Assembly (NCBI RefSeq): GCF_038050405.1
Contig: NZ_CP150900.1
Coordinates: 1,426,001 to 1,490,000, forward strand
DNA: 64,000 nt
Direction of reading: 5' to 3'
Source: Paraburkholderia sp. IMGN_8
GTDB lineage: Bacteria > Pseudomonadota > Gammaproteobacteria > Burkholderiales > Burkholderiaceae
Shown: piece by piece, positions 2 through 1,636 of the stretch
Layout: each line of letters begins with the position of its first letter
Position numbering within the stretch: position 1 is the stretch's first letter
The notes under the pieces: generated by a model
The model's database searches: none
What the model saw: only the letters and a program-made list of their open reading frames with translations
What the model was told of the DNA's origin: nothing
Translations under genes and position numbers: made by a program

Positions 2-427
2 GCGCTGCAATGGCATTTCGCTGCAATGTGGCTGCTGGTCTTCAACGGCCTGCTGTACCTCGCGCTGAACCTGATAAGCGGACGCCTCGTGCGCAAGTTC
101 CTACCGATTTCACCGCGCGCCATCCTGCACGACTTCGTCGCCGCGCTGACCGGCAAGCTCTCGCACGCGGATCTGCGCGTCTACAACGCGGTGCAGAAAT
201 TCGCCTACCTGTTTGTTGTCTGCGATCTGATCGTGCTGGTGCTGTCGGGCCTCGCGATCTGGAAGTCGGTGCAGTTCCCGCTACTGCGCGAATTGATGGG
301 CGGCTACGACAACGCGCGCATCGTGCACTTCTGCGCGATGTCGCTGATGGCAGCTTTCATCGTCGTGCATCTGGCGATGGTGGCGCTCGTGCCGCGCTCG
401 CTTCTCGCAATGTTGCGCGGACGCTAA
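2..427 (+). CDS. Cytochrome b561-type membrane subunit (5' partial)
   Basis: The reading frame is open from base 2, so the N-terminus lies outside the window. The visible 141 residues hold at least three hydrophobic segments, with histidines in the first (LQWHFAAMW) and last (HFCAMSLMAAFIVVHL) that fit heme ligation in the b561/hydrogenase cytochrome b family. The protein would pass quinol electrons to a periplasmic partner. Its stop is 23 bp before the molybdoenzyme gene, which has its own AAGGA ribosome site, so the two look like one transcript and an enzyme/electron-donor pair. A related gene pair in Azospira is called yedZ1-yedY1; whether this is a true orthologue cannot be judged from the fragment. 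Confidence 0.8.
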   Translation, partial: ALQWHFAAMWLLVFNGLLYLALNLISGRLVRKFLPISPRAILHDFVAALTGKLSHADLRVYNAVQKFAYLFVVCDLIVLVLSGLAIWKSVQFPLLRELMGGYDNARIVHFCAMSLMAAFIVVHLAMVALVPRSLLAMLRGR

Positions 428-450
428 GCAAAGCTTAAGGACATCCAATC

Positions 451-1215
451 ATGAAACCCGCTACCAAACTCGACCGCGACTCAATCCTGATCGACGCGCG
501 ACGCGAACTCGCGATGCCGTCGCGGCGACTGTTCGGCAAACGGCTGCTGACACTCGGCGGTCTGTCGCTACTGACCGGCTGCTCGCTGACCGACGACGAA
601 TCGGTCAACAAATTTCTGATGATGGTGTCGCGCCTGAACGACCGCGCGCAAGCCGCGCTGTTCGATCCGAAGCAACTCGCGCCGACCTACACCGAAGCGC
701 AGATCACGCGGCCGTTTCCGTTCAACGCGTTCTACAGCATCGACGAAGTACCCGACGTCGACGCTTCGGACTACAAGCTGAAGATCAGCGGCCTCGTGAC
801 CGGCCAGCGCGTCTGGACCTTGCCGGAGTTGTACGCGCTGCCGCACGCGGAGCAGATCACACGGCATATCTGCGTGGAAGGCTGGAGCGCGATCGGCCGC
901 TGGGGCGGCACGCCGTTCGCCGACTTTTTGCGGCGCATCGGTGCGGACACCAGCGCGAAGTATGTCGGCTTCAAATGCGCCGACGATTACTACGAAAGCA
1001 TCGACATGCCGACCGCGCTGCATCCGCAAACGCTGCTCACATTCTCGTACGACGGCGAGCGTCTGCCCGCGAAATACGGTTTTCCAATGAAGCTGCGCAT
1101 GCCGACCAAGCTCGGCTACAAGAATCCGAAGCACATCGTCGAGATGTTCGTCACTAACACGTATCCCGGCGGCTATTGGGTCGACCAGGGCTACAACTGG
1201 TTCGGAGGCTCCTGA
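451..1215 (+). CDS. YedY-like molybdopterin oxidoreductase (sulfite oxidase fold)
   Basis: A 254-residue protein with a sulfite-oxidase-type molybdopterin domain from about residue 80 to 250. The N-terminus carries a twin-arginine motif (SRRLFGK, residues 24-30) followed by a hydrophobic stretch and a lipobox-like LTGC ending at Cys44, so export by Tat and possibly lipidation are expected. Cys141 in RHICVEGWSAIGRWGG is the predicted molybdenum ligand. It is shorter than E. coli MsrP (YedY, over 300 residues). It follows a cytochrome b561 gene by 23 bp and precedes a Met-rich exported peptide, which suggests reduction of methionine sulfoxide in the periplasm. Family assignment is firm; the substrate is inferred. 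Confidence 0.88.
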   Translation: MKPATKLDRDSILIDARRELAMPSRRLFGKRLLTLGGLSLLTGCSLTDDESVNKFLMMVSRLNDRAQAALFDPKQLAPTYTEAQITRPFPFNAFYSIDEVPDVDASDYKLKISGLVTGQRVWTLPELYALPHAEQITRHICVEGWSAIGRWGGTPFADFLRRIGADTSAKYVGFKCADDYYESIDMPTALHPQTLLTFSYDGERLPAKYGFPMKLRMPTKLGYKNPKHIVEMFVTNTYPGGYWVDQGYNWFGGS

Positions 1216-1327
1216 CGCGCGCGGGTCGGGCATACGGAGTCAAATGCGCGACCCCGAGCGGCAGACGCTTCGGAAACATGCCGGCCCAGGCCGGTTCTGA
1301 TACATCCACAACAAACGGAGTTACCCC

Positions 1328-1555
1328 ATGAAAAAATTCGCAATCGCAGCAATGGCCGTCGCCCTCCTGACCAGCGGCGGCGCCGCGTTCGCGCAGGCAA
1401 GCGGCGCGATGTCCAACGATTCGATGTCGAAAGACACGATGTCCAAAGACAGCATGTCGAAGGACAACATGAAGAAGGGCACGATGAAGCACGACAAGAT
1501 GAAAAAAGGTAGCGACGCGATGAAACACGAAGCGTCGGGCGCCATGGGCAATTGA
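1328..1555 (+). CDS. Pentapeptide MXKDX repeat protein, Met-rich and periplasmic
   Basis: A 75-residue protein with a classical signal peptide (cleavage likely after AFA, residue 22). The mature part is a low-complexity tract in which Met occurs at residues 28, 33, 38, 43, 48, 53 and 58, exactly every fifth position, set in Ser/Lys/Asp; Met65 and Met73 follow. There is no Cys in the mature chain. An ACGGAG ribosome site lies just before the ATG. It sits 112 bp after the YedY-like gene and ends in a strong terminator. This matches the family named pentapeptide MXKDX repeat protein; a Met-rich peptide of this sort (MrpX) serves as an oxidant sink in Azospira. Metal binding is an alternative role. 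Confidence 0.85.
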   Translation: MKKFAIAAMAVALLTSGGAAFAQASGAMSNDSMSKDTMSKDSMSKDNMKKGTMKHDKMKKGSDAMKHEASGAMGN

Positions 1556-1612
1556 GGCATCGCGCGATGCTGATCGCATAGCGCGAACGCAGCAAGTGGC
1601 AGCACGTAAAAG

Positions 1613-1636
1613 CCGGGGAGACGTCCCCGGTTTTTT
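1613..1636 (+). terminator. Intrinsic terminator after the MXKDX gene
   Basis: A perfect 7-bp stem CCGGGGA/TCCCCGG with a GACG loop is followed directly by six T residues. It lies 57 bp after the Met-rich gene and closes that transcript. Confidence 0.9.

Follow-up and report, generated by a model that had tools for sequence, protein, structure and literature searches.

What is the role of a short operon in which genes for a cytochrome b561 and an exported YedY-like molybdoenzyme are followed by a gene for a small methionine (Met)-rich peptide of the MXKDX family, and how is this operon controlled? The operon is located at the left edge of a 64,000-nucleotide stretch of Paraburkholderia sp. 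IMGN_8 DNA (contig NZ_CP150900.1, positions 1,426,001 to 1,490,000; G000:C1:1426001-1490000), hereinafter the window, from a genome of 9.1 Mb in two contigs. The cassette is a conserved unit in which the enzyme and the peptide are paired beyond chance, and the promoter box upstream of it is shared with msrB/msrA and with an unlinked gene for an extracytoplasmic function (ECF) sigma factor. We consider it likely that cytochrome b561 feeds a renewable Met sink here, akin to MrpX/YedY1, and that the cassette is included in a regulon similar to that of meningococcal sigmaE/MseR.

Under this scenario, the operon would protect the cell envelope from reactive chlorine and from other oxidants, with the exported peptide absorbing oxidant at its many Met residues. 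Cytochrome b561, probably the quinol-side electron donor, would pass electrons to the membrane-anchored enzyme which, we infer, reduces Met sulfoxide in the peptide and renews the sink. An unlinked ECF sigma factor of the TIGR02943 type, with a 69-amino acid zinc-finger anti-sigma factor, is predicted to switch on both the cassette and msrB/msrA genes with export signals, as a counterpart of the meningococcal sigmaE/MseR pair.

The cassette and its enzyme

The three components named in a preliminary description of this DNA, namely a cytochrome b561, a YedY-like enzyme and an exported MXKDX peptide, were all confirmed by family models within positions 2-1636 of the window:

2..427, plus strand, C-terminal 141 amino acids of cytochrome b561 (PF01292; full protein 80.3 bits, cut-off 30.1)
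451..1215, plus strand, YedY-like molybdoenzyme of 254 amino acids (PF00174; 101.1 bits, cut-off 24)
1216..1327, plus strand, region separating the enzyme gene from the peptide gene, containing a GC stem (CCGG..CCGG)
1328..1555, plus strand, MXKDX repeat peptide of 75 amino acids with a Sec-type signal (TIGR02953; 51.4 bits, cut-off 41)
1613..1636, plus strand, intrinsic terminator (stem-loop and T run), end of the operon

The ATG of the b561 gene (L004 11789) is located 212 bases left of the first base of the window. The operon begins farther to the left with a gene for a DUF1223 protein (PF06764, 175 bits) that contains a CxxC motif, so that the order is DUF1223, cytochrome b561, YedY-like enzyme, MXKDX peptide and terminator. 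The terminator has a fold z-score of -4.12, with none of 200 shuffled sequences equally stable, and was flagged by a consensus terminator scan on the minus strand only. The CCGGN..CCGG pattern recurs in the gap between the enzyme and peptide genes in 70 of the 79 loci in which the peptide gene is downstream, and the conserved stem may raise the level of the peptide above that of the enzyme; the fold z-score of the gap in the window itself is just -1.5.

The mature peptide, delimited with a script that applies the AxA rule for signal cleavage, consists of 53 amino acids including 9 Met and, as already stated in the preliminary description, no Cys. The regular placement of Met at every fifth residue, also proposed there, holds for the first seven Met but not for the last two (spacings 5,5,5,5,5,5,7,8). 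With an assumed Met background of 2.4%, the chance of at least 9 Met in the mature peptide is 4.5e-6. Among 96 distinct MXKDX peptides, Met accounts for 17.8% of the residues and none contains Cys. The genome encodes a second MXKDX peptide (G000:C2:3290752-3290991; L019 6729-7019), the gene for which adjoins two multicopper-oxidase genes; this neighbourhood is repeated in L267 of a relative.

The enzyme, for which the closest named relatives are Paraburkholderia proteins with 95% identity, contains a twin-arginine motif (R25 R26), a lipobox Cys44 and, within a CVEGWS segment, Cys141, which we take to be the molybdenum ligand by analogy with YedY. These features suggest a lipoprotein exported by the twin-arginine (Tat) pathway and anchored in the membrane. 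R26, C44 and C141 are conserved in all 122 MXKDX-linked rows of the alignment and R25 in 121. From C141 to S146, the enzyme is identical to MsrP of the same genome, whereas the segment is not matched by the three sulfite-oxidase-like proteins encoded there.

Assignment of the enzyme to MsrP was rejected, given its score of 81.8 bits with the NCBIfam MsrP model (cut-off 207), and so was that of the cytochrome to MsrQ, given that it matches PF01292 whereas MsrQ belongs to PF01794. The true MsrP of this genome (499.8 bits) is encoded elsewhere together with MsrQ; the cassette therefore is not MsrPQ. Cytochromes of PF01292 and enzymes below the MsrP cut-off are also found in representatives of the loci from a wider survey, and no match to MsrQ was found in the 62 loci scanned. 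The fold is best matched by YedY (1xdy/1xdq), which ranks first both by sequence and in Foldseek; because YedY and sulfite dehydrogenase tie by Z-score, the fold was not taken as proof of the substrate.

Pairing of enzyme and peptide across genomes

In 65 of the 77 genomes of the genus, we found 67 enzymes with at least 78% identity, treated here as close orthologues; one of them, broken in two pieces, was counted once. Each of the 67 has a TIGR02953 gene nearby, in the same orientation and no more than 3 kb away (58 downstream, 9 upstream), compared with none of the 81 distant paralogues among the matches listed (53 at 66-72% and 28 at 53-63% identity; the class limits of 75% and 64% were chosen post hoc, and the table has a gap from 78% to 72%). 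The preliminary description had made its case dependent on co-occurrence of the two genes in relatives, which is what we observe. Conversely, 67 of the 81 MXKDX matches in the genus are linked to the enzyme and 14 are not, and an MXKDX gene is present in only one of the 12 genomes that lack a close enzyme.

Among the best 80 named loci, the peptide gene was found in 70 of the 73 with at least 74% identity (49 downstream, 21 upstream) and in none of the seven below this value. The three exceptions are L065, with no such gene, and L082 and L102, where the sequences stop approximately 600 bases upstream and a peptide gene located farther upstream may have been missed. The b561 gene precedes the enzyme gene in all 70 peptide-bearing loci, and the outer flanks of the 80 loci contain one MXKDX-like open reading frame in a total of 419 kb. 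On the tree, gene order changed approximately three times, the peptide gene ending up on either side of the enzyme gene with the pairing retained.

More broadly, MXKDX genes were found in 45 of 349 genomes of the phylum and in 25 of 150 genomes of the order. Among 44 loci outside the genus, drawn from the stronger MXKDX matches, 25 are near a relative of the enzyme, 24 of these with b561. The MXKDX-linked enzymes do not form one clade in the tree (71 of 143 rows, near-duplicates dropped), with 7 label changes against a mean of 18.5 after shuffling. A DNA-level search of E. coli genomes for a relative gave no match. Eight loci of one family (L217, L219, L220, L222, L223, L224, L227 and L230) contain a lone MXKDX gene beside a transporter-like gene, with no enzyme or box found at these loci.

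A shared promoter box and an unlinked sigma factor

According to the preliminary description, a sigma/anti-sigma pair, if present, would be located to the left of the window; the 12 kb in that direction contain the DUF1223 gene, a transposase-like gene and thiC, with no ECF and no NrsF gene, and the cassette has no GTAAC-type box. Orthologous cassettes elsewhere have an ECF gene within 5 kb in 32 of 70 cases, with NrsF beside the ECF gene in all three that were checked. In the wider survey, 11 of 46 MXKDX genes have a GTAAC..CGAA box in the 300 bases upstream, compared with one of 46 for the reversed pattern. The genome itself encodes two NrsF proteins elsewhere, each with a nearby GTAAC-type box, in L022 (C1:4316 kb), where the neighbours presumably are small exported and heavy-metal-like genes, and in L021 (C2:3121 kb). 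Control of the cassette by these SigF/NrsF pairs was rejected given that the GTAAC-type boxes are found near the NrsF genes and not, a divergent box aside, at the cassette.

The DUF1223 gene is preceded, 29 bases before its start codon, by a TGTCATAA-N14-CGAC box, which is likewise present in 17 named loci among L024-L042. With a spacer of 13-15, this box occurs three times in the genome (reversed control, none): at the cassette, at a spot where no gene is called immediately downstream, and before msrB/msrA genes whose products have export-type N-termini (TIGR00357, 175.7 bits; TIGR00401, 169.6 bits). The 77 genomes of the genus contain 139 boxes with a spacer of 13-15, the reversed pattern also matching in many of these genomes. 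Of these, 91 have the spacer of 14 and are located at the cassette (30), at an ECF gene with a small zinc anti-sigma gene (25), at msrB/msrA (18) or at a separate DUF1223 gene (1); none of the other 48, with a spacer of 13 or 15, is at the cassette. The ECF protein of the genus belongs to TIGR02943 (269.9 bits, cut-off 162.2). The small protein encoded beside it matches the antisigmaE model NF052368 (74.8 bits, cut-off 50). Our genome carries this ECF gene (96% identical), unlinked to the cassette, beside the gene for the 69-amino acid anti-sigma factor and preceded by the box with one mismatch. Thus, the cassette probably is switched on by the unlinked TIGR02943-type sigma factor, which we infer from the sequences to bind the box. 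Because the box is common to the cassette, the unlinked ECF pair and msrB/msrA, the locus is probably not self-contained as the preliminary description had suggested.

A relaxed form of the box is present in 31 of 70 named cassettes (15 of 700 shuffles), although two of these (L046, L094) look like chance matches, and the GTAAC box in 34; one cassette has both and six have neither. On the tree, approximately two switches between promoter types suffice. Since the tree needs just two promoter-type and three gene-order changes, the strong association of promoter types (Fisher p ~1e-12) was set aside as evidence of independence. In Caballeronia telluris (L065 3298-4082), a zinc-anti-sigma type ECF pair directly adjoins the b561-enzyme pair. 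At L351 and L369, the TGTCATAA-N14-CGAC box precedes, by approximately 70 bases, genes for another type of ECF (206 and 198 amino acids); cross-talk of two sigma circuits is possible at these loci.

Some expression evidence comes from Burkholderia cenocepacia. On arrays, BCAL1105, BCAL1106 and BCAL1107 were induced 12.7-, 8.3- and 3.4-fold after 5 min of NaOCl and 6.8-, 4.1- and 2.7-fold with H2O2 (PMC2830190), and in sputum BCAL1106 and BCAL1107 were induced 90- and 66-fold (PMC2559838). The published BCAL1107 primers (PMC2559838) match orthologues L069 and L089 without mismatch, with the 377 bp product as printed, and yield 377 bp in 11 of 12 Burkholderia loci, the forward primer failing on L090. 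BCAL1105 would be the MXKDX gene, judging from its position in the operon and from its annotation as 'exported protein'. In Burkholderia loci other than J2315 in which the peptide gene comes first, a box with the spacing of the Paraburkholderia box stands before it in 11 of 11 cases. PMC5835511, retrieved as a BCAL1106 paper, proved to be a false match. The hypochlorite link proposed in the preliminary description is thus backed by the conserved unit and by induction of the orthologues with NaOCl (PMC2830190), but the sigma pair that it considered to the left and the self-containment are not.

Alternatives and comparison with known systems

Several observations weigh against the regulated, renewable Met sink. 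MXKDX genes occur without the enzyme in 19 of the 44 loci outside the genus and in the 14 unlinked matches among 81 within it, and many b561-enzyme pairs lack the peptide (81 in the genus among the matches listed), Caballeronia telluris L065 being a case with b561 and enzyme and no peptide gene found. Other neighbours adjoin 17 of the 91 spacer-14 boxes; meningococcal sigmaE is unresponsive to H2O2, diamide and singlet oxygen (PMC2893595); and the BCAL induction comes from another genus and could reflect another regulator.

Other roles for the cassette can be considered. The b561-enzyme pair might mainly repair other oxidised envelope proteins, like MsrPQ, with the peptide being a co-induced one-way scavenger rather than a substrate. 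The 81 related b561-linked enzymes without a peptide are compatible with this possibility, as is the periplasmic-protein repair proposed for a related uropathogenic E. coli system (PMC8550376). We nevertheless consider it unlikely, because strict pairing with one enzyme class, together with the shifting gene order, fits a dedicated partner better; besides, the genome keeps a true MsrPQ. Much less probable is a peptide that mainly binds metal, such as copper via Met and His, with the enzyme keeping Met reduced for binding: the second MXKDX gene is located next to multicopper-oxidase genes, but the box ties the cassette to msrB/msrA and the ECF gene, and NaOCl and H2O2 have been reported to induce the orthologue (PMC2830190). 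The least probable role is that of a sulfite-oxidase-like enzyme with a different small oxide of sulfur or nitrogen as its substrate, the peptide being no more than a passenger of the stress operon. The first rank of YedY in the sequence and Foldseek comparisons and the CVEGWS segment, shared with MsrP and not with the three sulfite-oxidase-like proteins of the genome, argue against such activity, and retention of the MXKDX gene in 67 of 67 orthologues is unexpected for a passenger.

Among the known systems close to the cassette is the MrpX/YedY1 system of Azospira suillum, which Melnyk and coworkers reportedly described in 2015 as scavenging hypochlorite with a Met-rich exported peptide and which is cited in PMC8315932 and PMC4623255. 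By description, both combine an exported Met-rich peptide with an adjacent YedY-like enzyme and a cytochrome, and the source name of one related protein from P. phenoliruptrix mentions YedZ1. In the Paraburkholderia cassette, there is no adjacent SigF/NrsF pair, the promoter box is different and a DUF1223 gene comes first. Brucella bcrXQP with BcrS/AbcS, which is induced by HOCl and contributes to HOCl resistance, also combines an MXKDX peptide with a two-protein reductase, but there the ECF16 sigma factor and DUF1109 anti-sigma factor genes adjoin, the order is X-Q-P, and Q and P are called MsrQP homologues (PMC8315932). The uropathogenic E. coli operon C3566-C3568, with C3564/C3565, likewise encodes a membrane subunit, a YedY-like subunit and a Met-rich peptide, but is under two-component control and is reported to protect from peroxide (PMC8550376); here, too, the likeness is by description. 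MsrPQ of the E. coli type shares the CVEGWS segment, the export of the molybdoenzyme and its feeding from the membrane (see PMC8550376), but differs in its PF01794 rather than PF01292 subunit, in the absence of a lipobox Cys at the equivalent place of MsrP and in having no peptide partner. Annotation, gene order and the primer match all indicate that BCAL1105-1107 are the genes of this cassette, and they respond to NaOCl, H2O2 and sputum (PMC2830190, PMC2559838), but they bear generic names in these sources (exported protein, cytochrome b561, oxidoreductase) and start with the peptide gene.

On the regulatory side, Neisseria sigmaE/MseR is similarly an autoregulated ECF with a short zinc-type anti-sigma factor and controls msrA/msrB (PMC2893595, PMC3240639), whereas its regulon as described there includes no Met-rich peptide or YedY-like cassette and its -35 element is GTMAGBWTT. 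Compared by eye, GTCA and CG.C agree between the promoters and the GT-to-CG distance is 21 versus 21-22; the rest differs. The Bradyrhizobium EcfF regulon also includes Met-sulfoxide reductases (PMC3420878).

A partial literature search, a weak basis for claims of novelty, did not find BCAL1105-1107 or the Paraburkholderia cassette described as a Met-sink system or under this ECF. Systems of this kind are already known in Azospira and Brucella; what appears to be new is the lipoprotein form with b561, together with the alternative sigma circuit. The analysis offers a likely identity for generically named genes that are among the most strongly induced in the B. cenocepacia sputum and bleach experiments, sets a b561-fed lipoprotein enzyme family apart from MsrPQ, and leads to the prediction that a single sigma factor controls a small regulon consisting of the sink peptide, its reductase and MsrB/MsrA. 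It also clearly exemplifies how a defence cassette can swap its regulator and yet retain its parts. Whether the MXKDX peptides of Burkholderiaceae have their own reductase system apart from MsrPQ, with a b561-fed lipoprotein enzyme and the peptide as the dedicated substrate, plugged into circuits of the SigF/NrsF or sigmaE/MseR type depending on the lineage, that of the window being in the latter, is in our judgment evenly balanced.
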